Assembly: GCA_024639185.1 (NCBI GenBank)
Contig: JAHEIW010000008.1
Coordinates: 2,843 to 66,842 of the forward strand
Source: Deltaproteobacteria bacterium
GTDB lineage: Bacteria > Desulfobacterota > Desulfobacteria > Desulfobacterales > JAHEIW01
Length of the DNA stretch: 64,000 nucleotides
Direction of reading: 5' to 3'
Both the position numbers and the translations under genes were made by a program. A model generated the notes under the pieces. The model did not search any database, was not told the origin of the DNA, and saw only the letters and a list, made by a program, of their open reading frames with translations. This document shows positions 14,886 to 32,424 of the stretch, one piece after another (the first letter of the stretch is position 1; each line of letters starts with the position of its first letter).

Positions 14886-15356
14886 TTATTCCTGATCCTC
14901 CTCTTTTCCGGTTTTTTTTTCCTTTGTCAGTTTTTCAAATATCCCCTGAAATGGATTTGCTTCCATCAGGTTTTTTTGAGCCACCTCGGAAAAGCCCATT
15001 CCCATATCCAGCCACTTTTTAAACTGGTCGTCCATCGAGCCTTTGTAAGCCAGATAACTTTTGAAAGCTTGCTGGAGATAATTCTCAAAAAAATCCACCA
15101 GCACGTTGTCGCCATACTGAATGATCATATAAAGGAGTGGCACCGGCAGCAGTACGTTTTTATTTTTAGCTTCCTCCAATACAATCTGGGTCAGGATAAA
15201 GGCGGTAACATCTGCTTTGGTTTTGGCGTCGATGATCTCTACCTGTTGACCATTGCGGATGCGCTCGGCAACTTCATTAAGCGTCACGTACCTGCTCTTT
15301 TTGGTGTCGTACAATCGCCGGTTGGCATATTTTTTTAGCAGAATTTTTTCAGGCAT
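14886..15356 (-). CDS. phaR: Polyhydroxyalkanoate synthesis repressor PhaR
   Basis: A 156-residue protein beginning with the PhaR DNA-binding domain (residues 3-62; ILLKKYANRRLYDTKKSRYV is nearly invariant in the family), followed by the PHB accumulation regulatory domain (about 65-110). PhaR binds DNA near phasin and pha genes when no polymer is present and is titrated off DNA by nascent PHA. It is transcribed away from the phasin-like genes across a 259-bp spacer containing a perfect palindrome beside a promoter, so it probably controls those genes and itself. CAGGAAAGC precedes the start. Confidence 0.93.
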   Translation of the reverse strand: MPEKILLKKYANRRLYDTKKSRYVTLNEVAERIRNGQQVEIIDAKTKADVTAFILTQIVLEEAKNKNVLLPVPLLYMIIQYGDNVLVDFFENYLQQAFKSYLAYKGSMDDQFKKWLDMGMGFSEVAQKNLMEANPFQGIFEKLTKEKKTGKEEDQE

Positions 15357-15615: not shown

Positions 15616-15879
15616 ATGGACTCAAGTCAGATTGCAAAACAAATGATCGATTTTCAAAAATCAACCTTTGACAACATGTACAATTCCATGGTTATGCTTC
15701 AGGACCACACGGAAAAATTAGCCAGCACGCTTGTTGAGCAGGCCACCTGGATTCCAGAGGAAAGCAGTCGTGTCATCACCCAGTGGACAGAGACCTTTAA
15801 AACGGGTCGCAATGACTTTAAAGTCGCAATGGATGATATCTTCAGCAACATGGAGCAAATGCTGACAGCCGAAAAATAA
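15616..15879 (+). CDS. Phasin-like PHA granule protein 1
   Basis: An 87-residue, all-helical, cysteine-free protein (QIAKQMIDFQKSTFDNMYNS, then EQATWIPEESSRVITQWTET). It is a clear paralog of the next gene (IAKQMI-F-K--FDN---M shared). Small amphipathic proteins encoded between phaR and a PHA synthase are expected to coat granules as phasins; this is inferred from context and composition. AGGAGGAAACTTTAGC precedes the ATG at 15616, which rules out the longer frame starting upstream inside the promoter. Confidence 0.75.
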   Translation: MDSSQIAKQMIDFQKSTFDNMYNSMVMLQDHTEKLASTLVEQATWIPEESSRVITQWTETFKTGRNDFKVAMDDIFSNMEQMLTAEK

Positions 15880-15925: not shown

Positions 15926-16195
15926 ATGATGGATCAAAAACAAATCGCAAAGCAGATGATTCAGTTTAACAAAACCGCTTTTGACAACAGCTTTAACGCC
16001 ATGACCATGGTATACGAACAGAACGAGAAAATGGTCGGCACGTATCTGCAGCAGGCTACCTGGATGCCCGAAGAGGGTCGCAAAGCCATCGAAAACTGGA
16101 TGCAGTCGTACAAAAAAGGCTGTGAAGATTTCAAAAAACTGGCGGACGAAAATTATCAGAAAGTAGAGGCGTTTTTCGCCGGTTCTGGAGAATAA
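15926..16195 (+). CDS. Phasin-like PHA granule protein 2
   Basis: An 89-residue helical protein, tandem paralog of the preceding gene and 46 bp downstream. Shared blocks are KQIAKQMI-F-K-AFDN, QQATWMPEEGRKAIENWMQS and a terminal EAFF/EQML segment. About two in five residues match by eye. AAAGGAAGTACCC precedes the start. The pair looks like a recent duplication that may give two granule proteins of different affinity. The role is inferred from position between phaR and a PhaC-like gene. Confidence 0.75.
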   Translation: MMDQKQIAKQMIQFNKTAFDNSFNAMTMVYEQNEKMVGTYLQQATWMPEEGRKAIENWMQSYKKGCEDFKKLADENYQKVEAFFAGSGE

Positions 16196-16283: not shown

Positions 16284-17885
16284 ATGAACGAACACAAAAA
16301 ACCTTCTGACTATTCATCATTTCTGGCCCAGACCCTCGACAAAAACGCTACTGCAGTTTATCAACTCGTTAACGCCACCCAAAACTACCTCACCGGGCTC
16401 TCCAAATATGCCGGTGATTTCATGATTCCTTATCTGATTTCCACCAGCTATTTTAAAAAAGTGGAGGATGAAAAACTATCGCAAACCTCCCCGTTGGATA
16501 GTCTTGCTGCATACCTGAAGCTATTGGATTTCAACCTTAATATATTCAATCGAGGCTTTTTCGGCGGTCTGGCATCCATCAACGGCTATGCCCAATTTGA
16601 AATGGGCAGTTTCATTTCCGCCGTTTATAATACCTTTTTGAATATGGAAGGCGAAGATCTATATACCTTCGCCGAGCGCCAGGCGCGCCTAATGGACCTG
16701 GTCGTAAATATCTACCCCCAGGCTATCCAGGCCATTGAACCCGAGTACGGCTTTCATTTTGAACGCGGAGAGCATAAACTGGTGGCAGAGACGGACCATT
16801 TTTACCTTTACCGAATCTCTCCCACAGATAAAACAGTAAAAATAAAAAAATCCGGAAAACCGGTTATCATTATCCCCCCGTATGTCCTGGGCGCCAATAT
16901 TCTGGGCTTTTTGCCCGGTGAAAACAGAAGTTATGCGCACTGTTTTGCCAACCGCGGAATTCCCACATATATCCGCATTTTAAAAGACATCGCAACCACA
17001 GAAGCCCTCCAGGTCATGACCGGGGAAAATGACGCCCGCGATACCCGGCTGTTTTGTGAGACCGTCAAGCAAAACCATGGCAAACCGGTTACCTTAAACG
17101 GCTATTGCCAGGGCGGATTTTCGGCATTGTGCAATCTGCTTTCCGGCGAGTTGGACGGGCTGGTGGATGCATTTATTACCTGTGTGGCTCCCATGGATGG
17201 TACGCGCAGCAAGGGGCTGGCAAATTTTCTAAAAACCCTGCCCCGGCGGTTTAACGACCTGACCTACGGCACCAAGACGCTGCCCAACGGTAATCGGGTA
17301 GCAGACGGCAAATTGATGGGCTGGGTCTATAAGCTCAAGAGCATCGAGAGCGAATCACCGATTTCCGCATTTTACCGGGATCTGATGATGTTCGCCCGGC
17401 AGGGCAAGAAAAATATTCAAATTAGCAAAACCGCGCAGGGCCTGAATTTTTGGCTGAACAATGAACGTTTCGACCTGCCTCTGGAAATCACCAAGCTGAG
17501 TTTTGCCTCCTATAACGTTCCGATTTCAGGTGATGGGACGCTTCCGGTCAAATTGTTTGACAAAAAACTCAATCTAAAGCGCCTCAAAGAGATGGCCATC
17601 CCCTGGCTAATTTGCTACGGCGAAGGCGACGATCTGGTGGAAAAAGAAACCGCCCTGGCTCCGCTGGACTACATCGAGGCTGAAGTCACTCCTTTCCCAA
17701 AAGGGCACGTGGCCATGGCAACCTCGTGGTCCGACCCCAAATCGGCCTGTGCCCTGCACACGCGGTTCGGAGATGGGAACTGGCGCGGCCCGGTTCGCTT
17801 TCAGCTGGATCTGGATCGCTCATCTTCAAAGTCCCGGTCACAGAAAGGGCCCGCAAAGACCAAAGGGAAACGCAGCAATGGATAG
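16284..17885 (+). CDS. Divergent PHA synthase-like protein (PhaC family alpha/beta hydrolase)
   Basis: A 533-residue protein with a PhaC-type catalytic layout. The Cys nucleophile is Cys275 in a lipase-like box GYCQGG. The acid is Asp449 or Asp450 (YGEGDDLVEKE) and the base His475 (FPKGHVAM). A roughly 180-residue N-terminal region precedes the hydrolase core, as in class I/II synthases, whereas the two other synthases here are the shorter class III type. Class I hallmarks beyond the box look weak, so polymerase activity is probable but not certain; a depolymerase or transferase role is possible. It starts 27 bp after a hairpin and ends overlapping the next start by 8 bp, in one operon with the phasins. 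Confidence 0.75.
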   Translation: MNEHKKPSDYSSFLAQTLDKNATAVYQLVNATQNYLTGLSKYAGDFMIPYLISTSYFKKVEDEKLSQTSPLDSLAAYLKLLDFNLNIFNRGFFGGLASINGYAQFEMGSFISAVYNTFLNMEGEDLYTFAERQARLMDLVVNIYPQAIQAIEPEYGFHFERGEHKLVAETDHFYLYRISPTDKTVKIKKSGKPVIIIPPYVLGANILGFLPGENRSYAHCFANRGIPTYIRILKDIATTEALQVMTGENDARDTRLFCETVKQNHGKPVTLNGYCQGGFSALCNLLSGELDGLVDAFITCVAPMDGTRSKGLANFLKTLPRRFNDLTYGTKTLPNGNRVADGKLMGWVYKLKSIESESPISAFYRDLMMFARQGKKNIQISKTAQGLNFWLNNERFDLPLEITKLSFASYNVPISGDGTLPVKLFDKKLNLKRLKEMAIPWLICYGEGDDLVEKETALAPLDYIEAEVTPFPKGHVAMATSWSDPKSACALHTRFGDGNWRGPVRFQLDLDRSSSKSRSQKGPAKTKGKRSNG

Positions 17886-18351
17886 GCAGTTTCTTGAATT
17901 CCTGGGAAGTTTTTTTCTCAATGCCGCCAAGGGTCAAAAACAGCTCGAAGATATGACCCGATGGATCGGCGACGGATTCAGCGGTTTCGACGACTTAACG
18001 CGCATGTTTCGCAAATTCTATGGCATGAATGCGCTGCCGCTGGCTTCACCGGATTACGCCAGGGCCTGGGAAAAGGCATCGGAAAATTTCAAGAAATCCT
18101 ATCATGAGTGGTTGAATCTCATGAACGTCATTCCCCAAAGCGAGTATAACGCCCTTAAGAAAAAATGCGAGGCTCTCGAAGAAAAAGTCGCAACCCAGGA
18201 TAAAACCATCCAACATCTGCGAGATCTGCTATCTGAAAAAGGCCTGCCTTATGCCGATGCGGTAAAGGGATTTACCGAAATGATGGAGCAGCAGGGACAC
18301 CAGTTCCAGGAACTCATGGACAGCGTGGGAAAGGCCTTTACAAAGGAATGA
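17878..18351 (+). CDS. Small PhaE/PhaR-subunit-like coiled-coil protein
   Basis: A 157-residue protein with an amphipathic N-terminus (FLEFLGSFFLNAAKGQKQLED), a central region resembling PhaE (SPDYARAWEKASENFKKSYHEW) and a C-terminal coiled coil (about residues 85-120: ALKKKCEALEEKVATQDKTI). The ATG at 17878 overlaps the end of the PhaC-like gene by 8 bp, implying translational coupling and a physical partner. It is about half the length of the PhaE proteins at 20.8-21.7 and 24.5-25.5 kb. Accessory-subunit function is inferred. Confidence 0.65.
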   Translation: MDRQFLEFLGSFFLNAAKGQKQLEDMTRWIGDGFSGFDDLTRMFRKFYGMNALPLASPDYARAWEKASENFKKSYHEWLNLMNVIPQSEYNALKKKCEALEEKVATQDKTIQHLRDLLSEKGLPYADAVKGFTEMMEQQGHQFQELMDSVGKAFTKE

Positions 18352-18464
18352 TTTTCTATTTCCTGGGCGGTATTGTTTGGGTGGTCTGAGCACGGCCTGA
18401 ACGCCCTGAATCATTACGCCGTTTGTCATCAATTCAACTGTGGCAGCATGCCTTCGACGCCTAC

Positions 18465-19511
18465 CTAAAACCAGGAGCGGTGGCTCCAGATATCCTGCTC
18501 CAGGTCTTCTTTGTCCTTTTGAAGGGTTAGATACATGGAAGCGTTCTGGATGGCCAGGGCACCTTGATGGGCCAGGGCTTGAACCAGGGTAACAAAATCC
18601 TGCGGAAACTCCCGTTTAATTTTGGTATACAGCCGCAACACCCCGATAATCTCATCCCGCGACTTAATCGGCGTAACGATCATAGAGACGATGCCTTCCT
18701 TCTTCATCTCTTTTTTGTATTGTATGCGTTTGTCTTTGGTTGCATCTTTGATCAAAAGGGTTTCGCCTTGAAGCGCCTGGGTGGCGCTTTGGGTAGCCGA
18801 TACCGGCCCCTTGTTTAAAAATTCATCACTGAGGCCATAGCTGGCCACCAGTTTCAAATCGCCGCTTTGTTTATCCAGCAAACGGATGGCCGCGCCTTTC
18901 ATTCCCAGCGCCTGGCTGATATCGACTGTCAGGTTGTTTAAGATCTTCTTTATATCCAGACTGGAATTAATATGCGAAGCCAGATCAAGAAAAAGGGTGG
19001 CGTTTTTCTGGATCCGGCCCACCAGCCGGGCATGCTCAATGGCAATGCCGCCCTGTTCGGCAAGGGCGGATAAAAAATCAATCTCATCTTTGCTGAAATC
19101 CCTGGTCTTGGCGGTATACAGGGATAAGATTCCCTTGGTCTGGTCTCTGACAATCACCGGTACGCTCAGGATTGTGGCAATACCTTCGGCTTTTTTGGCG
19201 TCATGATGTTCCAGACGCGGATCGGAGGTGGCGTCCCGAAAATGAAGATGGCCCGCCTTGATGATTTCCTTGACAAGCCGCTGGGCTTTCAGCGGTTTCT
19301 GGTGCAAATAGTTATCGGATAGCCCCTCCTGGGCCATGGGAACAAAGATATCCTTTCCCGCCTGGGCCAGAAACAAACAGGCGGCTTTGGCATCCATGGT
19401 TTCGATGGCGCTCTGTACAATTAAATCCAAGAGTTTTTCACTGGAAAGGGTCGTTCCAAAGGCCTTGCTCACCTTGCAAAATGTTCTGAAATAATCCTTT
19501 TCCTTTGCCAT
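18465..19511 (-). CDS. Tandem GAF-domain protein
   Basis: A 348-residue cytoplasmic protein with two GAF domains (about residues 22-160 and 172-320), each with the fold markers AKAACLFLAQ / MKGAAIRLLD and IGVLRLYTK / KGILSLYTA. No kinase, GGDEF, HD or DNA-binding domain follows, so it is a stand-alone sensor or ligand-binding protein. Its start lies 14 bp after the stop of the class III phaC gene, with GAGGAGA as ribosome site, so it is the last gene of the phaE-phaC operon. A role sensing redox or nucleotide state for PHA metabolism is speculation. Confidence 0.8.
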   Translation of the reverse strand: MAKEKDYFRTFCKVSKAFGTTLSSEKLLDLIVQSAIETMDAKAACLFLAQAGKDIFVPMAQEGLSDNYLHQKPLKAQRLVKEIIKAGHLHFRDATSDPRLEHHDAKKAEGIATILSVPVIVRDQTKGILSLYTAKTRDFSKDEIDFLSALAEQGGIAIEHARLVGRIQKNATLFLDLASHINSSLDIKKILNNLTVDISQALGMKGAAIRLLDKQSGDLKLVASYGLSDEFLNKGPVSATQSATQALQGETLLIKDATKDKRIQYKKEMKKEGIVSMIVTPIKSRDEIIGVLRLYTKIKREFPQDFVTLVQALAHQGALAIQNASMYLTLQKDKEDLEQDIWSHRSWF

Positions 19512-19525
19512 AAACTATCTCCTCA

Positions 19526-20719
19526 TTAGCCGGATCGTTGGGTATCCTTTCGAAGCCGTTGGGATGATTTAGATCTTCCGGCGGTCTTTACTTTTGTCTT
19601 TTTTGGGGCAGTTGACTTTTTCTTGCGCGGTTTTTGATCGGGCGCGTCTCTTTCTGCAAGCCAGGCTGCTATGCGCGGCGCAAATTCCTGCTGGCATTTG
19701 GAGCTCACATAGATACCGATATGCCCCGTTTCCAGGCAGACATCGGTTGTATCCTTACTGCCGACGCGGCTCGTCAGAAGCTCACAGGCTTGCGGTGGGA
19801 CCAGATGATCATATTTGCCATAAAAATTAATTAATGGCATCCTGAGATTCTTCAGATCAACCCGTCTGTCCCCTACTTCGAGCTTGCTTTGAATCAGCAG
19901 ATTTTTCTGGTAGAAATCCTTAATAAACTGGCGGAATGTTTCTCCTGGAAGATCCGGACTGTCAAAGATCCATTTTTCCATGCGGACGAAATTTTCGACA
20001 AACTTTTTATTGTCCATATTCTCAAGGAATCCCACGTATTTGTCGATCATCAAGCGGGCCGGATTCAGCAGCAGAAAGCCGAAGTTCATAACATCACCGG
20101 ATATATTGCCAAAGGTGTCGGTGAGGTGGTCCGGATCGACGGCCTTCATCCACACATGCAAAAGCCCTTTATCGGTGTCGAAATTTGTCGGGGTTACGGT
20201 GGTGACCAAATTCTTAATTTTGGCGGGATTTAAAGCCGAATAGATCACACTGAAGGTTCCACCCATGCAGATCCCCATGAGGTTTATCTTTTTCAGATGG
20301 TGTTTCTGCCGAATGAAATCAATCATGGTATCCATATAGCCATTGACATGGTCATCGATGGTCAGAAAACGGTCTTTGCGGGTCGGATAGCCCCAATCGA
20401 TCATGTAAAGATCGATACCGTGAGCCAGCAAAGTTTCAACAACGCTTCTTCCCGGTTGAAGATCCAGCATGGTTTCCCGGTTGATAAGCGCGTAAACCAC
20501 CAGTAACGGTGTTTTTAATTTGATATCGGTCACCGGTTTATAATGCTTCAGCTTTACCCGGTCTTCTTGACACACGACTTCGTATGGGGTTGCGGCAATT
20601 TCTGAATCCAGCGGCCCGAGCAGAACATCTGAAGCCTTGTGTGCCCGTGCGCGGGCTTTATCGGCATCTTCGACGAGCTTTGACAGGATAAGATCTACTG
20701 GAATTTTAGGCTCACCCAT
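19526..20719 (-). CDS. phaC: Class III PHA synthase catalytic subunit (copy 1)
   Basis: A 397-residue class III PhaC. The lipase-like box GICMGG carries the nucleophile Cys151; Asp304 (YGKYDHLVPP) and His333 (TGHIGIYVS) complete the triad. Class III landmarks LLVVYALINR, LQPGRS and DWGYPT are present. It polymerises (R)-3-hydroxyacyl-CoA at granule surfaces as a heteromer with PhaE, encoded just upstream. It has a 50-residue Lys/Arg/Ser-rich C-terminal tail (KPRKKKSTAPKKTKVK) absent from canonical PhaC; the tail could bind polymer-associated nucleic acid or granule proteins. Confidence 0.93.
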   Translation of the reverse strand: MGEPKIPVDLILSKLVEDADKARARAHKASDVLLGPLDSEIAATPYEVVCQEDRVKLKHYKPVTDIKLKTPLLVVYALINRETMLDLQPGRSVVETLLAHGIDLYMIDWGYPTRKDRFLTIDDHVNGYMDTMIDFIRQKHHLKKINLMGICMGGTFSVIYSALNPAKIKNLVTTVTPTNFDTDKGLLHVWMKAVDPDHLTDTFGNISGDVMNFGFLLLNPARLMIDKYVGFLENMDNKKFVENFVRMEKWIFDSPDLPGETFRQFIKDFYQKNLLIQSKLEVGDRRVDLKNLRMPLINFYGKYDHLVPPQACELLTSRVGSKDTTDVCLETGHIGIYVSSKCQQEFAPRIAAWLAERDAPDQKPRKKKSTAPKKTKVKTAGRSKSSQRLRKDTQRSG

Positions 20720-20772
20720 GATGTCACCCCGCTTTTTTGGGAATTAGGAATAGGGATTAAGCGATGGTCATA

Positions 20773-21666
20773 TTAATGCTTCAATTTTTTTTCCAATGCC
20801 TTTATTCGCTTTTTCAGCAGGTAAATATCCTTATAGAGATCATCCATATCTTTTTGTTTCGGGATGGGCAACATGTTTAGCATATCTTCCAGAAGGTCAT
20901 TTTTCGCGGCCGAAAATTCAGACATGGCATCCAGGGTTTTGCCCATTGTTTCAATATATTCGGTAGATTGGAATAGGGTCATGTAATGTCCCTCCAATAT
21001 TTTTATCCACATTTGATAATATTTTTGTGAATCTTCAGGCAACTCTCCTGCTTCAGAGAGCTCAGCGAGCTTTTCCTGAACAACACTGAATGACTTTGTC
21101 ATCGGCAGATATAGCAACCGAATGAACTCGCCAATGGCTGTCTGAAATAAATTGAATTTGTCCAGGGTCTGGTTTACTTTTTCCTGATAAAAACGGGTCA
21201 GTCCGAGTTGGGGAATATTGAAAAATTGCCTGAATTCTTTCTGGTAAATCTCATTCCAGGCTCTGAATGCATTTTCGTCAAGATCCTCAAATGTATAAGC
21301 CTCGGTTGATTTGCCGATCCGGCCCGCCCTTTCAAACCATTTCTGCTGGAACTCCATAAATCCGGCAAGAGTCGATTGGGCCAGCTGCATCAAAATTTCG
21401 GGCATGGTGCCGGATCCTTTAAACATGGAATCCATGATCTCGGGTCGGTTCATTGTCGACGACAGGACCTGCCAGGCTTTCATGGCGGCATCCAGCGACG
21501 CCTGTGCATGACTGGATGCGCCACCTGGAGATGCAGCCGAGGGCCTGATGGTAGCAGTTGCATCGGACCAACTCCGAAACATATTGCCCCAAACATCACC
21601 GGTCATCTTCATCCAGGCTGAAAGAAAATCTGGTCTGGTTTCATTTTTATCATGCTTTTCATTCAT
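20773..21666 (-). CDS. phaE: Class III PHA synthase subunit PhaE (copy 1)
   Basis: A 297-residue helical protein of the PhaE family. The conserved central part (FNIPQLGLTRFYQEKVNQ, about residues 150-170) is followed by a C-terminal coiled coil ending DDLYKDIYLLKKRIKALEKK (about 272-292), the region that activates PhaC. There is no catalytic motif, as expected. It precedes phaC copy 1 by 53 bp in the same operon. GAGGGGCGATCA precedes the start codon. Confidence 0.9.
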   Translation of the reverse strand: MNEKHDKNETRPDFLSAWMKMTGDVWGNMFRSWSDATATIRPSAASPGGASSHAQASLDAAMKAWQVLSSTMNRPEIMDSMFKGSGTMPEILMQLAQSTLAGFMEFQQKWFERAGRIGKSTEAYTFEDLDENAFRAWNEIYQKEFRQFFNIPQLGLTRFYQEKVNQTLDKFNLFQTAIGEFIRLLYLPMTKSFSVVQEKLAELSEAGELPEDSQKYYQMWIKILEGHYMTLFQSTEYIETMGKTLDAMSEFSAAKNDLLEDMLNMLPIPKQKDMDDLYKDIYLLKKRIKALEKKLKH

Positions 21667-21854
21667 TGATCGCCCCTCGCCCGGTTCCCGCAGAAATTTT
21701 TCGGTAACCGATCACAGCTGTTTACCGGATATCGAAGTTGGGGCCGTTTGTCAACGCAGCAGTTACTGTAAATACAGGACTGTCAGATTAACAGAAGAAG
21801 TCACTCAGAAACAGCGGAGCAGGTGTGCTTGTGTTGAGTTGGCTCAACCGGTTT

Positions 21855-22709
21855 CTATTTTGTAATGAATTTTTGAATCGCCTTATCCCGCATTTCGTTC
21901 GGCTGAAATAAAATCGAGAAATGATTTGTGCCGTCTACGTTTAGGCAATGCGCATTGGGGATTTCTGAAACCATCTTTTCAACAGCTGATTCGGGTAAAA
22001 CGAGGTCATCGCGGCTTAAGATACCATTTGTAGCCCGCAGGATCAGCACCGGGCAGGAGACTTTTGGATAGTATGCGGAGGGAACTTCCTGCTGGATATT
22101 TTGGATCTCCTCCCGGATGTGTTCCGGATTGATTCTTGAGCGCAGCCCGCCTTCCACCGCTTCTGACTCGTACTGGAAGTAGTCCTCGATCGCCTGTGAC
22201 CAGGGTTGCAGAAAAGGCGCCCGTTTCATATGGGCCACATAGGCATCGAAGGAGCGAAAAACTTGCCCCAATCGGTCCAAGGAAGGTTTTATAGCAACCG
22301 TAACCTTTTCCCATTGATCTTGCGTAAGTTGTCCGCCGCCATCCATCAGAATAATTTTTTCGGTCCGCTCGGGATAATGGGCTGCGAATGCCAGTGAGAT
22401 AAATGCGCCCAGGGAATGGCCCATCAGGACAATTTTCTCCTGCTTGAGCTCATCTAATACGCACAAAATATCCTGGGTGTGATGCCGCATAGCGTATCCG
22501 GCGGAGGGCTTATCTGAAAGTCCCCTGCCGCGCAGATCGATGGCCAGAATCGTATTTTCAGGGGTCAAGGATGATGCCATCACATCCCAACAACGGCAGT
22601 TTGCGGTGAGGCCGTGGATACAAAGTACCTGACGGCCCTTCCCTTCCCAGATGGCCATCTGCATTGCTATTCCGTCCCCATTGACTTTTCGCATGATGGG
22701 CTCGGTCAT
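21855..22709 (-). CDS. Alpha/beta-fold hydrolase
   Basis: A 284-residue alpha/beta hydrolase. The oxyanion-region motif is CIHGLTAN, the nucleophile elbow is MGHSLGA with Ser99, and the likely catalytic base is His263 (GTNHFSIL). DLRGRGLSDKP is typical of the epoxide hydrolase/haloperoxidase-like group. It sits between the two phaE-phaC pairs, 34 bp downstream of phaC copy 2, so it may act on hydroxyacyl esters or oligomers, for example as an intracellular PHA oligomer hydrolase. That role is inferred from position. ATG 22709 is preferred, with GAGGA 6 nt upstream; ATG 22715 abuts that site. Confidence 0.8.
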   Translation of the reverse strand: MTEPIMRKVNGDGIAMQMAIWEGKGRQVLCIHGLTANCRCWDVMASSLTPENTILAIDLRGRGLSDKPSAGYAMRHHTQDILCVLDELKQEKIVLMGHSLGAFISLAFAAHYPERTEKIILMDGGGQLTQDQWEKVTVAIKPSLDRLGQVFRSFDAYVAHMKRAPFLQPWSQAIEDYFQYESEAVEGGLRSRINPEHIREEIQNIQQEVPSAYYPKVSCPVLILRATNGILSRDDLVLPESAVEKMVSEIPNAHCLNVDGTNHFSILFQPNEMRDKAIQKFITK

Positions 22710-22743
22710 GGTCATTCCTCTATGTTTTCGGTTCTTTTAAGGT

Positions 22744-23805
22744 CTAACGCTTTTTAATCCACTTCGCAATTTTAGGGCTTATGGTTTTATAGGATTTGCT
22801 GCCCACAAATATGCCCACATGACCGGTGTCAACGCCAATCGTGGTGACATCTTTGGACCCTACTGCCTTCGAGAGGGGTTTGGCAGTAGACATGGGTGCA
22901 AGATAATCGTTTTTGCCAAAAACATTTAGCAGCGGGCATTTAATTTTGCCCAGATCCACTTTTTGACCGTCCAAAATGAGGCGGTTCCGTATCAGCAGGT
23001 TCTGTTGCAGGAAGTCTCTGATCCACTCTCGAAAGACTTCACCTGCCATATCGGGGCTGTCAAATATCCATTTTTCCATACGTAAAAAGGTACTGACGAA
23101 TTTAGGATTTTCAATGCCCTCCAAAAGCTGGATATATTTAGTTGCCGTGGCAACGGGCGAGACAAGCAGATACAGGATATTGGCCAGGTCTCCGGGCAGA
23201 TTACCGAGTCCTTCCACGGCCTTGTCCACATTGAAACCCTTGGCCCATAAAAACAGACCGGCGTCATCGATGTCAAACTCGGTTGGTGTTGCCAGCGTGA
23301 TCAGATTCTTAATCTTTTTACGGTGCAGGGCGGTATAAATCACACTGAAGGTTCCCCCCATACAAACGCCCATTAAATTGATCTTTTGGGTTTTGGTTTC
23401 AGATCGAATCCATTTCACCGCCGTGTCCATATAATAATTGATGTAATCATCTATACCCAAATACCGATCCGCACCCGTCGGGTAGCCCCAATCGATCAAA
23501 TACACATCCAGGCCCTCGTTGAGCAGATTTTGGATGAAGCTTCGGCCAGGCTCCAGATCGAGCATGATGTATCGATTGATGAGTGCATAAACAATTAAAA
23601 CCGGTGTGGCATGTATTTTTTTCTTTTTCACCCGGCGGTGATAATGCAACAGCTTCATCTTATCTTCGGTATAGACAACATCAGCGGGCGTCTTTGCGAC
23701 TTGATAATCCGGATTGTCAGCGAGCACCTCGGTCGCGCGGAATACTTTTTTCGGAAATTCCTTTAGATCTTTTTCGATGCTTTCAATGATATCCTGATAA
23801 TTCAT
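22744..23805 (-). CDS. phaC: Class III PHA synthase catalytic subunit (copy 2)
   Basis: A 353-residue class III PhaC, close to the usual length. The nucleophile is Cys148 in GVCMGG, with Asp300 (FGKNDYLAPM) and His329 (DTGHVGIFVG). It shares the VLIVYALINRY, LEPGRS and DWGYPTGADRY segments with copy 1, so the two are clear paralogs, but it lacks the basic C-terminal tail. A 655-bp spacer full of palindromic repeats separates it from its likely partner phaE copy 2. The ribosome site is weak (no clear GGAG), which may lower its expression or mean the start lies elsewhere. Confidence 0.93.
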   Translation of the reverse strand: MNYQDIIESIEKDLKEFPKKVFRATEVLADNPDYQVAKTPADVVYTEDKMKLLHYHRRVKKKKIHATPVLIVYALINRYIMLDLEPGRSFIQNLLNEGLDVYLIDWGYPTGADRYLGIDDYINYYMDTAVKWIRSETKTQKINLMGVCMGGTFSVIYTALHRKKIKNLITLATPTEFDIDDAGLFLWAKGFNVDKAVEGLGNLPGDLANILYLLVSPVATATKYIQLLEGIENPKFVSTFLRMEKWIFDSPDMAGEVFREWIRDFLQQNLLIRNRLILDGQKVDLGKIKCPLLNVFGKNDYLAPMSTAKPLSKAVGSKDVTTIGVDTGHVGIFVGSKSYKTISPKIAKWIKKR

Positions 23806-24460
23806 TATGAGTAACCGTTCATAGGTTCTGGGATTACGATAATTCCTGTTATCGCAAACGGGTGCGATGTTCCATAAAATTCGTGCCGGTCATGTCATTT
23901 TCTGAAAGGCGCTATGAATCTCAAAGTAGCTGTGCCCCGATATTTGGGATTCGACCCACCACAAAAATTGAACCAAATACTTCGGTGCCCATCATCCCAA
24001 ATATCGGGACACTGTGTCGCTAATCGGTTAATAATCAGCATATCGCCTTTCAGAAAAAATCATGCCCGCCAGGCAGCTTCAGCGGAGGCAACTTCTATGT
24101 TGGCTCGCAATGGATCCTGGCAATATTGAAGATTATTCATAGGATGCAACACTTGTAGCTGTTTAAAAAAGTATCAATTAATCAATCGAGGGGTCGAGGC
24201 GTTTTTCCATCCAATCCCTCAAAATAGCGGAATGAATTATCAGCAGCGAAATCGTGCACTGTCTGAATGGTTTAGGGCGCGTTGCGAAAGAACAGCAATA
24301 ACCCCAAAGCTACGAAAGGGGGCAAATTTGAAGTTGCGTCCAGCCCATTATTTTATATTTGAATTCTGTTCTTTTGCTACACTCCCTTAACCATGAGTTT
24401 GCACGATGAAGTCGCTGATATTTCATTCTGCGATCGATTAAAGAAAAACTCCCCGAACCC
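23806..24460. other. 655-bp spacer between phaE2 and phaC2, filled with repeats
   Basis: No supportable gene. Two nested palindromic elements (23897-24060 and 24176-24471) take up most of it. The open frames here read through the palindromes and have no protein-like character. Confidence 0.7.
23897..24060. repeat. Nested palindromic element with terminal inverted repeats (family C)
   Basis: The ends are ATTTTCTGAAAGGCGCTAT (23897-23915) and its near-complement (24040-24060). Inside is a perfect 15-bp inverted pair CCCGATATTTGGGAT (23936-23950) / ATCCCAAATATCGGG (23994-24008). At about 164 bp with no coding sequence it looks MITE-like. Confidence 0.75.
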
Positions 24461-24471
24461 TCAATTAATCA
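24176..24471. repeat. Palindromic element with terminal inverted repeats (family D, full copy)
   Basis: The left end (TTAATCAATCGAGGGGTCGA then GGCGTTTTTC) is an imperfect complement of the right end (GAAAAACTCCCCGAACCC then TCAATTAATC). Inner arms CAGCGAAATCGTGCA / TGCACGATGAAGTCGCTG are also inverted. A half copy lies at 14726-14823. The right terminus contains the stop codon of phaE copy 2. Confidence 0.7.
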
Positions 24472-25483
24472 TCTTGGACTTTTTCGCTTTTTTAGAAGCT
24501 TTAGCCGCGGCTTTTGATTTTAGGCGCCGCTTCGCCTCAGATTTTACCGATGGCTTTTTCTTAGACAAACCGCTCTCAACGATTTTCAATTTTCGTTTCA
24601 GCGCTTTTATCATCTTTTTTTGCTCACGGATCAGGTCGTCCTGTTTGCGCGTCTTTTTTTTCAGATCATAGATTCCCTTGTAAACATCTTCCATTTCTTT
24701 TCTTGTTGGAATCGAAAGCGACCGGAACCAAATATCCCTGGTGATGTTGTGCTTTTTCTTATACTCTAAATATTTTTCAACCAGGTCCACCACATTTTTT
24801 ACACCATCGGGGGATTTGATATATTCGTCATATCTTTTCTCAAGAATGTTGACCGCATAATCATAGATTTCTTTAGCGCTTTTGAAGCCGTCCTCAGCCT
24901 TTTCTCTGCGTTTAATCGCCTGTTGCAGCACGTCCAGGGCATCTTTTAAAGGCATGCTGAATTTCACTATAAAATCTCCAACAGCCCCCATGAATTGGTG
25001 ATAAGAATCAATGGCGGCCATGATCTGATGCTGGGCTTCTCTGTGAATACCGAATTGGGGAACACCGACGAACTTGCCGATATTTGCCTGATAAAGGTTT
25101 AGATACTGTTGTGTCATTTTATCGTAGATCTCATTCAGCATTTCGTCAGTATCATCCCCGGCATAAGTGGCCTTGGCCGCCTCTAAGACGGTATTCATGA
25201 ATTCGATATACATATGTCCGTTTTGAATGAGGCTTTGCAAGATTTTATTTTGGGTCTCAACATCGATAGAAGACCCACCTTTTGACAGAGCTTCCTGCAG
25301 GCCTTCCATCCAGGACTTAAATAAGGCTTGGGCATCTTTTCCTTTGGCCTTGGCGGATGGGTCGGCAAAGAAATTTTGGCCGGCTTTTTGAAACCATTCC
25401 CAATATTTTTCGGGGTTCGTTTCTGAATATCCCGGATATAACCCTTTTAGCATTTGTAGAAAAAGATCTGCTCCGCTGTCCAT
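24461..25483 (-). CDS. phaE: Class III PHA synthase subunit PhaE (copy 2)
   Basis: A 340-residue PhaE-family protein. It carries the conserved VGVPQFGIHREAQHQI segment (about 140-155) equivalent to that in copy 1, and a coiled-coil C-terminus with DVYKGIYDLKKKTRKQDDLI. A strongly basic tail of about 35 residues follows (KPSVKSEAKRRLKSKAAAKA and onward), similar in character to the tail on PhaC copy 1. The tail may contact DNA or the granule surface. The last codons run into the terminal repeat of the palindromic element. AGGAGCCCTGAT precedes the ATG. Confidence 0.88.
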   Translation of the reverse strand: MDSGADLFLQMLKGLYPGYSETNPEKYWEWFQKAGQNFFADPSAKAKGKDAQALFKSWMEGLQEALSKGGSSIDVETQNKILQSLIQNGHMYIEFMNTVLEAAKATYAGDDTDEMLNEIYDKMTQQYLNLYQANIGKFVGVPQFGIHREAQHQIMAAIDSYHQFMGAVGDFIVKFSMPLKDALDVLQQAIKRREKAEDGFKSAKEIYDYAVNILEKRYDEYIKSPDGVKNVVDLVEKYLEYKKKHNITRDIWFRSLSIPTRKEMEDVYKGIYDLKKKTRKQDDLIREQKKMIKALKRKLKIVESGLSKKKPSVKSEAKRRLKSKAAAKASKKAKKSKMIN

Positions 25484-25590: not shown

Positions 25591-27114
25591 CTAATCGGTG
25601 TCGGCTCGGCCGTGTTTGTCTTTAAGAATAAACTTTTGAACCTTTCCCGAGGCCACTGTGCGCGGCAGTTCATCTATGGCCACCATATATTTGGGAATCT
25701 TGAATTTGCCCAAACGCTCGCTTAAAAACTCTTTTAGTTCCTCGAAGCTAAGTGTGCTTCCGGCATGAAGCTCAACAACCGCCTTACCCACCTCACCCCA
25801 TTTGTCATCCGGCACCCCGATAACGGCAACACCGGCGACGGCCGGATGCATCTCGATGGCTCGCTCGATCTCGGCCGGATATATATTGGCACCGCCTGAA
25901 ATGATCATATCTTTGAGCCGCCCCACAATGGCAAAATGGCCATCGGCATCGATGCGACCAAAATCTCCGGTTTTAAACCAGCCTGCGGATATCGCTTCAG
26001 CGGTCTCCTCGGGTTTGTTCCAATATCCGGCGCAAATGTGAGGACCGCGCAGCCAAATTTCCCCTTCTTCTCCGGTTGGTACCTCATTCCCCTCCGGGTC
26101 CACAATCTTTGCATCGACATGCGGCATGGGATGACCGACCGATCCGAGTTTCCCGTTGGCCAGAAAGTTATTGGGACCGGCTTCGGTCAATCCGTAACCC
26201 TCCCAGATTCGGATGGACTTCTGGTTTTTAAAGGTTTCCAGAATATCCTGGCCCAGCGGTGCACCCCCCGCAACCATAAAACGGATGCTGGAAAAATCCG
26301 TTGAATCAAACTTGGGAGAGTCCATCAGTATCTGAAACATGGTGGGCACACCGAAAAAAATCGTCACCCGCTCATGTTCGATCAGATCCAGGATCAAATC
26401 CGCTTCAAAGCTTTTGATCAGAATATTCGCACCGCGGCCATAAAAAAGCGGTAAGGTAAACACATTCCAGCCGGCGGTATAAAACATGGCAGCGTGCAGG
26501 ATGGTTCTATCGGTCGAGCGCAAATCCCAGCCCAGATGGGTATTGATGGCGTTCCAGGTGAGCATCCTGTGGGTTAAAATAACGCCTTTGGGCAGACCGG
26601 TGGTGCCGGAAGTATAGATGATCAACTGGGGGTCTTCCGGTCCGATCTCGATTTCAAGGGGCGGTTCAGCAGACAGCGCCGACCAGGCGTTTGGCAAGGC
26701 CTGCCCAACGGTGTCACCTTCATCAAAGCAGACATAGTGTTCCACATCGGTTTTGCTTTTAAAGCCGTCTACATTTTCCTGGTGAGCCTTATCAAAAAAG
26801 ATCGCTTTGGGTGCGGCGTCTTCCAGATAATAAATGAACTCTGCCGGCGCCAGTCGGAAGTTCAGCGGAACCAGAATGGCGCCCAAGCGGCTCAAAGCGA
26901 AAAATAGCTTGATATACTCTACCCGATTGAATGAAAGCACAGCCACCCGATCGCCGGGGTCGATACCCAGGTGGTTGCTCAAAAAGTCGGCCATGCGATG
27001 GATATCATCGCTCAATTCGCCGTAAGTATAGCGGCGGTCATCGATAACATCTACCAGGGCTTCCTTCTCAGGAAGGCTTCGTCCCCAGCGTCCGATCCAG
27101 TCGCCATAAAGCAT
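25591..27114 (-). CDS. AMP-forming acyl-CoA synthetase (FadD-like), copy 1
   Basis: A 507-residue ANL-superfamily ligase with the P-loop YTSGTTGLPKG at 167-177, the adenylate motif GYGLTEAGP, the TGDFGRID motif and the C-terminal lysine region SGKVQKFIL. It activates a carboxylic acid via acyl-AMP to the CoA thioester; chain length or aromatic specificity cannot be read. It stands directly upstream of livM in the same direction, separated by 182 bp, and could activate what the Liv system imports. GAAAGGAGAGTCAGCAG precedes the start. Confidence 0.92.
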   Translation of the reverse strand: MLYGDWIGRWGRSLPEKEALVDVIDDRRYTYGELSDDIHRMADFLSNHLGIDPGDRVAVLSFNRVEYIKLFFALSRLGAILVPLNFRLAPAEFIYYLEDAAPKAIFFDKAHQENVDGFKSKTDVEHYVCFDEGDTVGQALPNAWSALSAEPPLEIEIGPEDPQLIIYTSGTTGLPKGVILTHRMLTWNAINTHLGWDLRSTDRTILHAAMFYTAGWNVFTLPLFYGRGANILIKSFEADLILDLIEHERVTIFFGVPTMFQILMDSPKFDSTDFSSIRFMVAGGAPLGQDILETFKNQKSIRIWEGYGLTEAGPNNFLANGKLGSVGHPMPHVDAKIVDPEGNEVPTGEEGEIWLRGPHICAGYWNKPEETAEAISAGWFKTGDFGRIDADGHFAIVGRLKDMIISGGANIYPAEIERAIEMHPAVAGVAVIGVPDDKWGEVGKAVVELHAGSTLSFEELKEFLSERLGKFKIPKYMVAIDELPRTVASGKVQKFILKDKHGRADTD

Positions 27115-27296
27115 CTGCTGACTCTCCTTTCTGAGTTAGATCCTAAAATGCTATATTTTCCCTTTTTCTGCAAAAAATTCAAATAAGGGTAATTGGGGGT
27201 CGGATTTTTCTCTACCGTATCTGAACCGATGACAACAACCGGCAATCAGGGTACATCGATCGCGGCGACAGAAAAATGCCGGAAATAGTCCCCGGT

Positions 27297-28394
27297 CTAT
27301 ATCGACGGGGCTGTCTTACGCCGTGCCATGAAATCCTGGACCGACCCGATGATTCCTTTCGGAAAAAAGAAGACCACCATGATAAAAAGAATTCCAAAAA
27401 TAAGCAGCCAGCGCTCCATAGCCGCATGCAGAAAATGAGCACCCGGAAAGAGGCTTTTGGCAAAATTCTGAAGATCAGGCAGAAAAGAGTGGGCAAATTC
27501 CAGGAAGGCAGCGCCGGCAAGCCCGCCGTACAGGGTCCCCATCCCCCCAACAATTTCCATCAGAAGGACATCGAGCATGATTGGAATACCCAGGACCGAC
27601 TCCGGATTGGCATATCCCACCCACATGGCGTACAACCCGCCAAGGATGGTGGATACCAAACAGCCGAAACAAATTGAAATACTCTTGACAATAAATGTTT
27701 TATAACCGATGGCCTCGGCTCTGGGTTCGTTATCGCGAATGGCCTGCATGACGCGGCCCAGCGGGGAATTGATAAAACGGATCATGAGCAGAAACAATCC
27801 CAGGCAGACAACCAGAATAAAATAATAGGTGATCAGCCTGCCGGTAATCTCGACGCCCAAAAATTTTCCCATATTAAATGACACCTTGAAGATTCCCGGC
27901 ATGCTCATGATGATGCCGTCTTCTCCACCGGTAAAACCACTCAATTTAGTGGCCAGGATGATGGCAAACTCGGCGATCGCCAGGGTCACCATGGCAAAGA
28001 ATATGGCCTTGACCCGCAGCGAGAGAAAGCTGACAATCAGGGCCAGGGCTGAAGTAATGCCCAAGGCAACGATGAAACCGATGACAAGATTAATATAAGT
28101 CGGGTTGCCGTATTTGCCGATCAGCAAGGCAACACTGTAAGCCCCAATACCGAAAAACATGACATGCCCAAAAGACAGAATCCCCGTATAACCCAGCAGG
28201 ATGTCGAAACTGGCCACCAGGACGGCAAAAATCATGATTTTTAAGGCCAGATCCAACGATTTGAACGATGGAAAAAGGAAGGGCACCAGAATAAAAAGGA
28301 GCAATACGGCGAGCTTCAAAAAGAAGGTGCCGCTGCGGTATTGCTTCTGTCTTTCCTGTCTGCGAAAAATTTGAACCGGTGTCTGCTCTGCCAT
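27297..28394 (-). CDS. livM: Branched-chain amino acid-type ABC permease LivM
   Basis: A 365-residue inner-membrane permease with about ten hydrophobic segments (first about 24-42). LivM hallmarks are GYTGILSFGHVMFFGIGAY (about 69-87) and the ATPase-docking stretch GRVMQAIRDNEPRAEAIGY. The GGMGTLYGGLAGAAFLE segment is also typical. The last gene of livKGFHM in transcription order, it starts 12 bp after livH. A short extension after the last helix (FFPKGIIGSVQDFMARRK) is normal. The substrate may be a branched amino acid or, given the acyl-CoA synthetases around it, a short or aromatic acid. Confidence 0.93.
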   Translation of the reverse strand: MAEQTPVQIFRRQERQKQYRSGTFFLKLAVLLLFILVPFLFPSFKSLDLALKIMIFAVLVASFDILLGYTGILSFGHVMFFGIGAYSVALLIGKYGNPTYINLVIGFIVALGITSALALIVSFLSLRVKAIFFAMVTLAIAEFAIILATKLSGFTGGEDGIIMSMPGIFKVSFNMGKFLGVEITGRLITYYFILVVCLGLFLLMIRFINSPLGRVMQAIRDNEPRAEAIGYKTFIVKSISICFGCLVSTILGGLYAMWVGYANPESVLGIPIMLDVLLMEIVGGMGTLYGGLAGAAFLEFAHSFLPDLQNFAKSLFPGAHFLHAAMERWLLIFGILFIMVVFFFPKGIIGSVQDFMARRKTAPSI

Positions 28395-28406
28395 AGCTTG
28401 ACCTCG

Positions 28407-29396
28407 TTATTTTCCGGCCGCGAAAAGACCCGTCGGCTTGATCAGAAGAATAATGACCATAATCAAGATATTGACGCCTACCGCCAGCGAGGGCAAAAGG
28501 TAAGCCACATAATTGTATGAGAGACCAACGATCAGGGCCCCTACCAGGGATCCGGTGACACTTCCCAACCCCCCGATAATAACAATGATAAAGGCGAAAA
28601 TAAGGTAGGCCCCCCCCATGTCTGGGTATACCTGTAGGTTGAAGATGGCCATCGTCAGACCACCGACAGCGGCCAGCCCGGCCCCAACTGCAAAGACGCC
28701 TGTAAATATCAGGAAGATATTGTGACCCATGGCCTGCACCATTTCCGGATTCTCCACCCCGGCCCGCACGATTTTGCCGACTTTGGTCTTTTTCAAAATG
28801 AGCTGTATGACGGCATAAACGATCAGCCCCAGCGCAATGGCATAAATGGGATACTTTAAAATAATAATGTCAAAGATGTTCCAGTTCCCGGCAAATGACA
28901 CCGGCTTGGGCATCACCTCGTCATTCGGTCCCCAGATAATGCGGATCAGTTCGGTCAGCACGACCATACCGCCAAAGGTAATCAGGATCTGAAACAGATG
29001 GGAGCCGTATACCCGGCGGACCAGCACCCTTTCGACAACCATCCCCACCACCGCAACAACGATGAAAGCGGCGACGATGGCAATGAAGAAGATCCCAAAG
29101 TTCAGAAAGACCGAATCCGCCGTTACCCAGGCGTTAAGATACTTAAAGACACTAAAAGCCACATAGGCCCCATAGGCAAAGCAAACCCCGTGGGCAAAAT
29201 TAATGACATCCATCAACCCAAATATGATGCTCAGCCCGGAAGCCACCAGAAACAGCATCATCCCCATGGCCAGGCCCGCAATCGTAAGGGTCATATAGGT
29301 ACTGAAGTCCATGCCCAATAGGGGAAGCAAATAGAGAACAATAGCCCCTGCGATGGCCAGTTTAGATCCCCACTGTTTAAGTATTGTCTGCGCCAT
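28407..29396 (-). CDS. livH: Branched-chain amino acid-type ABC permease LivH
   Basis: A 329-residue permease with the LivH signatures GLSIIFGLMDVINFAHGVCF (about 53-72) and GGLGSVTGSLVGALIVG near the C-terminus. The docking loop region reads VRAGVENPEMVQAMGHN. It forms the channel heterodimer with LivM. It follows livF by 21 bp; GAAAAGGAATGATTTT provides the ribosome site. Confidence 0.93.
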   Translation of the reverse strand: MAQTILKQWGSKLAIAGAIVLYLLPLLGMDFSTYMTLTIAGLAMGMMLFLVASGLSIIFGLMDVINFAHGVCFAYGAYVAFSVFKYLNAWVTADSVFLNFGIFFIAIVAAFIVVAVVGMVVERVLVRRVYGSHLFQILITFGGMVVLTELIRIIWGPNDEVMPKPVSFAGNWNIFDIIILKYPIYAIALGLIVYAVIQLILKKTKVGKIVRAGVENPEMVQAMGHNIFLIFTGVFAVGAGLAAVGGLTMAIFNLQVYPDMGGAYLIFAFIIVIIGGLGSVTGSLVGALIVGLSYNYVAYLLPSLAVGVNILIMVIILLIKPTGLFAAGK

Positions 29397-29417
29397 AAAA
29401 TCATTCCTTTTCTAACC

Positions 29418-30137
29418 TTACACAGATTTAGAGATGCCCAAATATTTGCTTTGCATCTCCTCATCTTGGACGAGTTCCGCCATGGCCCCGCTGTGAACGA
29501 CCTTGCCGTCGTCCAGGATAAAAAAATAATCCCCCACGCTGCTGGCCATGTAAAAGTTTTGTTCTACCAAAACAACGACACTGTGCTGTTTAATCTGATT
29601 GATCGCATCGATAAGCGCATTTATAATAATGGGCGCCAGCCCCTTTGTCGGCTCATCGATAAGCAGCAAAGCGGTGTCGTTTATGATGGCCCGGGCGATG
29701 GCAAGCATCTGTTTCTGCCCGCCGCTGAGAATACCGGCTTTGGCGCGCCAGAAATCCCGCAGAGCGGTAAACATCTCCAGGACGCTTTCCAGCCTTTCGG
29801 CCGTAGCAGCATCTTCCCGCAGCATGGCCACCTGCATGTTCTCTTCGACCGTAAGGTCTGCGAAGATCCCCATATTCTCGGGCACAAAGCCGATCCCCAG
29901 CCGGGCAATGTCGTACGGTTTCCTGGATTGGATCTCTTTGCCTTTGAAGATGATTTTTCCCTCAGAAGCCGGAAGCAGCCCCATCACTGTTTTGAGGGTC
30001 GAGCTTTTGCCCGCTCCGTTGCGGCCGATCAGAACCGTCACGGCATCGGCCCTGGCCTCAAAGGAAACTCCTTGCAGAATATGGTGCTGGCCGATGAAGG
30101 TGTGGATCGCCTCGGTTTTCAAAATAGTCTCACTCAC
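29418..30137 (-). CDS. livF: Branched-chain amino acid-type ABC ATPase LivF
   Basis: A 239-residue ATPase with Walker A GRNGAGKSSTLKTVMG, the LivF-specific FVPENMGIFADLTVEENMQV, signature LSGGQKQMLAIARAI and Walker B LLIDEPTKGLAP. GTG at 30137 is chosen: GGAGGAACCACCC precedes it, the length becomes the family norm, and it overlaps the end of livG by 8 bp. The longer frame from 30206 would add 23 unrelated residues. Confidence 0.93.
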   Translation of the reverse strand: MSETILKTEAIHTFIGQHHILQGVSFEARADAVTVLIGRNGAGKSSTLKTVMGLLPASEGKIIFKGKEIQSRKPYDIARLGIGFVPENMGIFADLTVEENMQVAMLREDAATAERLESVLEMFTALRDFWRAKAGILSGGQKQMLAIARAIINDTALLLIDEPTKGLAPIIINALIDAINQIKQHSVVVLVEQNFYMASSVGDYFFILDDGKVVHSGAMAELVQDEEMQSKYLGISKSV

Positions 30138-30906
30138 GGGTGGTTCCTCCTCCCAGATAGGCTTCCTGGACGGCCTCACTTCGGTAAATCTCATCGGGCT
30201 CACCATCGGCGATGATGCGGCCCTCTTGCAGAACCATGATGGTGTCTGAAAGCGACATGATCATGTCCATCTTGTGTTCCACCAAGAGCAGGGTCCGGTC
30301 ACGGGCCTCCTTGATGCGCTGCAGGATCTCCAATATGGCCGGAACCTCCTCCTGGCCCATGCCCGCGGTGGGCTCGTCCAGAAAAAGAATTTCCGGCTTG
30401 AGCGCCAAGAGAATGGCAATCTCCAGTTTGCGCTTTTCTCCATGGGTTAATTCGGCGGATGTGGCGCTCCACTTTTCATCCAGGAGGACCTCTTGAAGGA
30501 GTTCGTAGGCCTCATCTTCGGCATCTGAAAAATGAAGATAACTTTTCCAGAAGTTCAAGCCAAAGCCTTCACGGGACTGGATGGCCACGCGCACGTTTTC
30601 TAGAACAGATAACATCGGAAAAATATTGGTCAGCTGAAAGGAGCGCCCCATGCCCAGCCGGGTTCTGTCGGCCGGGCTCAGGTTGGTGATATCCTGGCCT
30701 TTCAGAAAGACCTGTCCTTCGGTCGGTTTGTACTGGCCCGTCAGCATATTGAAAAAGGTCGTCTTGCCTGCCCCGTTGGGGCCGATAATGGACTTGAGAG
30801 TGAAAAGCTGCATTTGAAAGTTTACATGGTCAACAGCCACGTGACCACCGAAACGGATGGTCAGATCCTTTGTCTCAATGATGGGTTCTGTATTTTTCGC
30901 ATTCAT
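30130..30906 (-). CDS. livG: Branched-chain amino acid-type ABC ATPase LivG
   Basis: A 258-residue ATPase with Walker A GPNGAGKTTFFNMLTGQ, the LivG-type insertion SFQLTNIFPMLSVLENVRVA, signature LTHGEKRKLEIAILLAL (an LTHGE variant of LSGGQ, usual in LivG) and Walker B ILFLDEPTAGMG. ATG 30906 gives the normal length; another ATG at 30957 would add 17 residues, and neither has a strong ribosome site. It is separated from livK by about 200 bp containing a hairpin. Confidence 0.92.
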   Translation of the reverse strand: MNAKNTEPIIETKDLTIRFGGHVAVDHVNFQMQLFTLKSIIGPNGAGKTTFFNMLTGQYKPTEGQVFLKGQDITNLSPADRTRLGMGRSFQLTNIFPMLSVLENVRVAIQSREGFGLNFWKSYLHFSDAEDEAYELLQEVLLDEKWSATSAELTHGEKRKLEIAILLALKPEILFLDEPTAGMGQEEVPAILEILQRIKEARDRTLLLVEHKMDMIMSLSDTIMVLQEGRIIADGEPDEIYRSEAVQEAYLGGGTTRE

Positions 30907-30993
30907 TTTGCAAAGCCCAAGATAACGCTTAACCGATCCGGCACATATCAGCCCCATCTGAATTTGGGGGCTAACACACCGAGGGAAAGGAGC

Positions 30994-31040
30994 ACCGGAG
31001 TGTTACAATTTTCAATATTTCTATGTTACTCCGGCACTCC
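30994..31040. repeat. Imperfect hairpin in the livK-livG spacer
   Basis: CCGGAGTGTTACA (30994-31006) is answered by TGTTACTCCGG (31024-31034), leaving a small bulge. It follows the binding-protein gene, as in the Opp operon, where hairpins often set binding protein over permease expression. Related GGAGTAATGGAGT wording occurs near 3775-3790. Confidence 0.45.
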
Positions 31041-31108
31041 ATCACTTCAAGGATGCACCTGGATGGGCGCAAATTTTAGCGCTGATTTCTGATATGATCG
31101 GCTAGCAC

Positions 31109-32308: not shown

Positions 32309-32424
32309 TTTAAGCCTCCTTTCTGGTGATTATAGACAGCGTTAATTGATGCACAGCACGTACAAGTTCAGCTCCTTTCAAGTTGCACAGACAAAATGTT
32401 TCAAATACCAATGGTTGCTTTAAC

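Follow-up and report, generated by a model that had tools for sequence, protein, structure and literature searches.

We analysed a 64,000-nucleotide stretch of contig JAHEIW010000008.1 (contig positions 2,843 to 66,842), hereafter the window, whose own numbering is used throughout. It comes from a Deltaproteobacteria bacterium of the Desulfobacterota, the genome of which (G000) amounts to 5.09 Mb in 443 contigs and is 91.8% complete. The window holds a polyhydroxyalkanoate (PHA) locus in which phaR, two phasin-like genes, C3 and CC are followed by the genes for a GAF-domain protein, PhaC1 and PhaE1, by a serine hydrolase gene, and by the genes for PhaC2 and PhaE2. Our subject is C3 (16284–17885, forward strand), which encodes a divergent 533-residue PhaC-superfamily enzyme with N-terminal helices, an alpha/beta-hydrolase core, the triad C275/D449/H475 and a basic tail, together with CC (17878–18351, forward strand), which encodes a helical partner of 157 residues and starts within the end of C3. 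C3-CC is a real, conserved and unannotated PhaC-superfamily system. A first-pass annotation had described it as a third synthase system flanked by two class III pairs; all the open reading frames (ORFs) that it named are present, but the flanking arrangement is not, as C3 sits at one end of the locus.

When C3 was compared with Pfam and NCBIfam, no model matched at its cut-off. The sole specific trace was to the class III PhaC model TIGR01836 (E = 8.6e-5, 21.7 bits; cut-off 365.3), and C3 matched neither PF07167 (PhaC_N), TIGR01838 and TIGR01839 nor TIGR01849, PF06850 and PF11339. The PhaC-like protein with Cys275 in a GYCQGG box that the first-pass annotation had pointed out is thus present, with just a marginal likeness to class III. 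The family alignment (A1) contains 55 members that are 53–91% identical to the window C3 and share 78 invariant columns, which excludes chance; the closest named relative found, 91% identical, belongs to an uncultured Desulfobacterales bacterium. A scan of one genome per species, which relied on short peptide patterns that remote relatives elsewhere could escape, gave 63 C3-related loci, all in sulfate-reducing or syntrophic ‘Deltaproteobacteria’. Of the 394 Desulfobacterota genomes sampled, 27 have C3. The gene also occurs in cultured species such as Desulfosarcina alkanivorans, and none was found in the plasmid records scanned. Solitary or second copies away from phaR and CC were seen at L099, L004/L020, L162, L035, L040, L051 and L053, and G161 and the Olavius Delta 3 symbiont have two C3 copies each. 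No description of the family was found in the open-access literature, a coverage that does not extend to subscription papers.

C275, D449 and H475 are invariant in the C3 alignment and were aligned with the triads of all the groups compared, including classes I, III and IV. The nucleophile box GYCQGG is of the GxCxGG type seen in synthases, whereas the rows of the depolymerase PhaZ and of ZL have CQP; ZL and X are labels of this analysis for a PhaZ-like and a PhaC/PhaZ-like group, respectively. This box and the Leu-Val following the Asp pair are synthase-like states, and the Gln after the nucleophile, found also in 4 of 21 class III rows, is depolymerase-like. Because the character states of C3 are mixed in this way, the sequence does not decide the reaction. 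The motif W-x(3-7)-[DN]-LP was considered as a synthase marker and discarded, as it occurs in only 17 of 67 class III and 1 of 14 class I sequences.

The AlphaFold model of C3 (predicted local distance difference test [pLDDT] 89, predicted template modelling score 0.86) consists of long helices at residues 8–150 followed by an alpha/beta-hydrolase core. Against solved structures, the top 15 Foldseek matches of this model were all PhaC (E from 3e-12 to 1e-8), and the next were the Bacillus thuringiensis PhaZ and other hydrolases. The template modelling (TM) scores to PhaC were 0.57–0.61 for the catalytic domain, normalised to the target. There was no Cys-type PhaZ among the fold matches, and the fold comparison is thus compatible with a relation to PhaZ. 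Searches of the sequences of solved structures by phmmer and by profile found no PhaC, so that fold comparison alone found it. The N-terminal region of C3 showed no homology to PhaE, the phasin-like proteins or CC (E of 0.1 or worse).

In profile comparisons, C3 came nearest to class III PhaC (E = 3e-11), followed by X (3e-10), class I (2e-5), DUF3141 (3e-3), PhaZ (0.1) and ZL (0.25). By the same measure, the E value is 1e-38 between class I and class III and 2e-15 between PhaZ and class III, so that the Cys-type depolymerases are nearer to class III than C3 is. In a tree that sampled one class IV PhaC (Priestia) and left out class II, the C3 proteins came together in one clade (100/100) whose stem measures 4.19 substitutions per site and which lies apart from the clade that unites classes I, III and IV (98/93). 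Phylogeny was nevertheless rejected as a decisive placement of C3, since approximately unbiased (AU) tests reject neither a synthase nor a depolymerase as sister. The earlier suggestion of an undescribed synthase class is still tenable: C3 lies outside classes I, III and IV in the free tree and fits no library family, but the AU test does not reject C3 with class III. The outcome that the first-pass annotation had named as speaking against it, a grouping with hydrolases that do not make PHA, did not appear in the free tree, although the AU test does not reject a grouping with PhaZ (p = 0.23).

The longest ORF of CC begins at 17749, and the conserved start is the ATG at 17878, which gives 157 residues. 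The CC start and the C3 stop overlap as ATGGATAG (17878–17885), and this overlap suggests that the two genes are translationally coupled. The CC alignment (A2) has 36 members and the protein is predicted to be all-helical (pLDDT 82), in agreement with the small coiled-coil partner of C3 previously described. CC did not match PF09712 and its fold search gave no meaningful match. CC was found in 23 of the 27 genomes that carry C3, compared with 12 of the 367 that do not. Several matches in this second group are short, and at least one CC-like gene of full length in it adjoins a class III phaE-phaC pair (G057). CC is a strong, non-exclusive associate of C3.

The operon of phaR, one or more phasin-like genes, C3 and CC is conserved and often lies beside a GAF-PhaC-PhaE group. 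Among 90 C3 loci, phaR was present in 64, a phasin-like gene of the ph89 group in 75, CC in 63 and class III PhaC in 60, these counts applying within the stretch examined and many of the loci being cut by contig ends. In the window, phaR (14886–15356, reverse strand) is divergent to the C3 operon and encodes a PHA synthesis repressor that scores 91.4 bits against PF07879 (cut-off 25) and 98.2 bits, slightly below the cut-off of 109.45, against TIGR01848. The two small phasin-like proteins upstream of C3 have 87 residues (15616–15879, forward strand; the ORF is listed from 15520 and the probable start is the ATG at 15616) and 89 residues (15926–16195, forward strand; conserved, with one to three copies in relatives). 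They form one family (hhalign E = 6e-51) and have no library match over cut-off, the 89-residue protein reaching just E = 0.085 against Phasin_2; its neighbour at 15616–15879 is presumed to be a phasin from its position and size.

In one genome, G080 (99% complete, 40 contigs), C3 and CC occur with phaR and two phasin-like genes, and a further PhaC could not be recognised there (best TIGR01836 E = 0.039; nothing for PF07167 at 1e-4). The operon of G080 suggests that C3-CC may be able to make PHA without PhaEC. Two further candidates for such genomes, G033 and G229, are drafts and were set aside; G033 has no other PhaC, but its contig breaks off within the GAF gene, which usually stands just before phaC.

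Depolymerase-side enzymes were found in 18 C3 loci (13 X and 5 ZL), usually adjoining phaR, and DUF3141 genes in four. X and ZL score over the cut-off of PF06850, the polyhydroxybutyrate (PHB) depolymerase C-terminal model, which C3 does not match, and owing to their presence C3 need not be the sole depolymerase of these loci. The X proteins (360–410 residues, box GLCQGGW) adjoin phaR in C3 loci of Syntrophales-type genomes and lie upstream of it at L089, L090, L091, L032, L043–L047, L054, L055 and L059. They score about 130 bits against TIGR01836 and about 74 bits against TIGR01849, both under cut-off, and 58 bits against PF06850, and are probably depolymerases of a separate group. The 470-residue ZL enzymes (CQPGPL box, PF06850 79 bits) occur near C3 loci (L002:7114–8535, L037, L039, L042, L154) and group with PhaZ in the tree (100/98); there is no close copy in G000. 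DUF3141 genes are in loci L003, L016, L020 and L152, and G000 itself encodes, at G000:C76 (L067/L103), a DUF3141 protein of 740 residues that has Cys as its nucleophile (NCQAGW) and a TerB-like stretch at the C-terminal end. A canonical PhaZ was not found in G000. In a sample of 198 genomes, PhaZ-lineage matches (TIGR01849, E of 1e-10 or better) were present in 3 of the 6 class III genomes that have C3 and in none of the 13 that lack it (p = 0.02), a contrast that suggests the opposite of depolymerase substitution by C3. The idea that C3 replaces a missing depolymerase is hence unsupported by co-occurrence.

The remainder of the locus is on the reverse strand. A protein with two GAF domains (18465–19511; PF13185/PF01590), whose gene adjoins PhaC in most relatives' loci, belongs to the class III operon together with the catalytic subunit PhaC1 (19526–20719; TIGR01836 434.7 bits), which has a Lys-rich tail, and the subunit PhaE1 (20773–21666; PF09712 83.5 bits). 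The second pair consists of the tailless PhaC2 (22744–23805; 410.5 bits) and of PhaE2 (24461–25483; 99.1 bits), which has a Lys/Ala-rich tail. With both PhaC over the TIGR01836 cut-off (365.3) and both PhaE over that of PF09712 (25.7), the two class III pairs reported earlier are confirmed: PhaE1-PhaC1 and PhaE2-PhaC2 are both PHA synthases of the ordinary class III kind. PhaC2 is 48% identical to PhaC1 and PhaE2 32% identical to PhaE1; no second pair of this type was seen in the relatives' C3 loci, relative to which it is an additional pair. PhaC2 and PhaE2 are separated by 655 bp without a convincing gene (23806–24460), compared with 53 bp between PhaE1 and PhaC1. Between the pairs, in the same orientation, lies a serine alpha/beta hydrolase (21855–22715; GHSLGA) whose top NCBIfam matches, PcaD at 84 bits and an intracellular nPHAscl depolymerase at 72 bits, are both far under cut-off, and which is a possible candidate for a serine-type PHA depolymerase of G000. 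Downstream, at 25591–37247, are three acyl-CoA synthetases, an ATP-binding cassette transporter of the branched-chain amino-acid type and a MaoC-like dehydratase, a cluster that could supply hydroxyacyl-CoA to the PHA enzymes. Scans for promoters and terminators gave site numbers no higher than in shuffles.

Basic C-terminal tails are present in the window on C3 (net +7 across the final 30 residues), PhaC1 and PhaE2. The first-pass annotation had seen a crosswise pattern, from which it proposed division of labour or mixed complexes. Lys-rich tails are indeed carried by PhaC1 and PhaE2 and not by their partners, but the description is incomplete because C3 is tailed too, and the proposal drawn from it is not supported since, in addition, the PhaC1 tail is widespread in the lineage and pair 2 is extra. 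In relatives, the PhaC1 tail is basic in most loci and PhaE1 is usually tailless, and a basic tail is found on C3 in some loci and on CC in others. It is very improbable that the pattern reflects PhaE-PhaC complexes in which the two class III pairs mix or exchange their subunits. Such an exchange would agree with the tails of PhaC1 and PhaE2 and their absence from the partners, but relatives without pair 2 usually show the same combination of a tailed PhaC1 and a tailless PhaE1, so that no exchange is needed; moreover, PhaE1 and PhaE2 share just 32% identity, and the C3 loci of relatives do not contain pair 2. The crosswise pattern of the class III pairs needs no special explanation. A rule of one basic tail per C3-CC pair was also considered (0 of 53 pairs with both tailed, 13 with C3 only, 20 with CC only; Fisher p = 8e-4) and rejected, because after correction for relatedness five independent pairs were left and none was significant. 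DNA-binding Lys/Ala-rich tails are known in the PHA granule proteins PhaM and PhaF, which makes a nucleoid-anchoring role of the basic tails a reasonable guess.

C3 is a conserved family set apart from the known classes, with an intact triad, a PhaC-like predicted fold, linkage to PHA genes and an association with CC. Our preferred interpretation, to which we give a probability of about 0.48, is that C3-CC is a two-part PHA-granule enzyme separate from class III PhaEC and most likely polymerises hydroxyacyl-CoA. C3 would then be a cysteine enzyme of the PhaC superfamily with the alpha/beta-hydrolase fold, in which C275, activated by H475 and D449, would take the acyl group of hydroxyacyl-CoA, and the chain would grow on C3 itself as in PhaC. 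CC may bind C3 as a small PhaE-like subunit, or one like the class IV PhaR, and the long N-terminal helices and the basic tail may hold the complex at the granule and perhaps at the nucleoid. We infer that C3-CC would act beside the class III synthase on the same granules, probably with different monomers or in different conditions. Somewhat more tentatively, C3-CC may constitute an additional PHA synthase class, formed by a deep lineage of PhaC in the Desulfobacterota that has a helical N-terminal domain and a small subunit of its own and is independent of PhaEC. We favour a synthase because of the conserved PHA operon, the association with CC, the candidate depolymerases X and ZL in C3 loci and the occurrence of the C3 operon in G080 without another recognisable PHA synthase.

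Several observations weigh against a synthase. Directly after the catalytic Asp, 12 of 13 C3 rows have a further Asp, where 27 of 28 rows of classes I, III and IV have His (the window PhaC2, with Tyr, is the exception), and in this respect C3 resembles the depolymerase-side families. Another PhaC is present in 25 of 27 near-complete C3 genomes (class III over cut-off in 22; only class I-like matches in G082, G306 and G326, which have no CC match), so that a second synthase would rarely be indispensable, and the C3-only case is one genome, G080. The likeness of CC to PhaE is weak, a profile similarity to the PhaE C-terminal region with hhalign E = 3.6e-4 and a probability of 37%. AU tests do not reject C3 as sister to PhaZ plus ZL (p = 0.23), X (0.21) or class III (0.33), and the PhaZ-lineage contrast (3/6 against 0/13) is suggestive and not more, because its three genomes come from one family and are not independent. 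The main rival explanation, which we regard as possible but doubtful, is that C3 is a Cys-type intracellular PHA depolymerase or other chain-cleaving hydrolase working on the granule made by class III, with CC as granule anchor. Cys-type intracellular depolymerases are a known kind (PMC2666664). C3 is nearly always accompanied by another synthase. Both the Asp after the catalytic Asp and the Gln after the nucleophile are as in PhaZ, X, ZL and DUF3141, the Cys-to-Asp spacing of C3, at 174 residues, exceeds that of the C. necator and C. vinosum PhaC (161 and 153; triads taken from PMC6403647), a sister relation to PhaZ is not rejected, as given above, and G000 is without a canonical PhaZ. However, the box is GxCxGG and not CQP, PF06850 does not match, the profile E to PhaZ is 0.1 against 3e-11 to class III, other depolymerase candidates occur in the same loci, C3 shares its operon with a PhaE-like partner, and G080 has C3 and no recognised synthase.

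It is unlikely that C3 is a non-polymerising acyltransferase or thioesterase of the granule, for example one that releases or loads acyl groups, or that it has kept the fold and the triad as a regulator of PhaEC. The very long stem (4.2 substitutions per site), the unusual invariant residues and the co-occurrence of C3 with class III and class I synthases alike would be in line with such a role, but the triad is fully conserved, the operon resembles that of a synthase with its small subunit, and in G080 C3 is found without another synthase. If the favoured synthase interpretation is right, C3 would add a PHA synthase class with possibly a new monomer range; if not, it would be an overlooked PHA-cleaving enzyme. 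Either outcome would correct how carbon storage is annotated in the genomes of sulfate reducers and syntrophs, since C3 fits no curated family model.

PHA synthases comprise four classes. Among the systems compared with C3-CC, DUF3141 (PF11339) is a member of the same superfamily with a Cys nucleophile and is present in some C3 loci, but its proteins have more than 700 residues and form a distinct clade, C3 has no match to the model, and a true DUF3141 gene lies elsewhere in G000. The Cys-type PHB depolymerase PhaZ (TIGR01849/PF06850) likewise shares the superfamily and a Cys-Asp-His triad, with Asp, Glu or Asn after the catalytic Asp; it differs in its CQP box, in the absence of a C3 match to either model, and in a profile E of 0.1. 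Class IV (PhaRC of Bacillus) is similar in the size of the small subunit (CC about 18 kDa, PhaR 22 kDa; PMC6403647), the likeness of CC to PhaR being one of size, whereas the Priestia PhaC groups with classes I and III (98/93) and not with C3. Class I (TIGR01838) provides the best fold matches (5hz2, 5t6o, 5xav, 6k3c, 9knj–9knl), a similar length (about 590 residues against 533) and an N-terminal helical domain ahead of the catalytic domain; unlike class I, C3 matches neither PF07167 nor TIGR01838, forms a separate clade and has a dedicated partner gene in most genomes. From class III (PhaEC), C3 is set apart by a pairwise identity of 28–30% to PhaC1 and PhaC2, a score of 21.7 bits against a cut-off of 365.3, a 155-residue N-terminal helical region and the lack of a His after the catalytic Asp, and CC, with 157 residues, by its weak likeness to PhaE. 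With class III, on the other hand, it shares the PhaC fold, the GxCxGG box, the aligned Cys/Asp/His triad and a small helical partner in the operon, and class III is its nearest profile (E = 3e-11).

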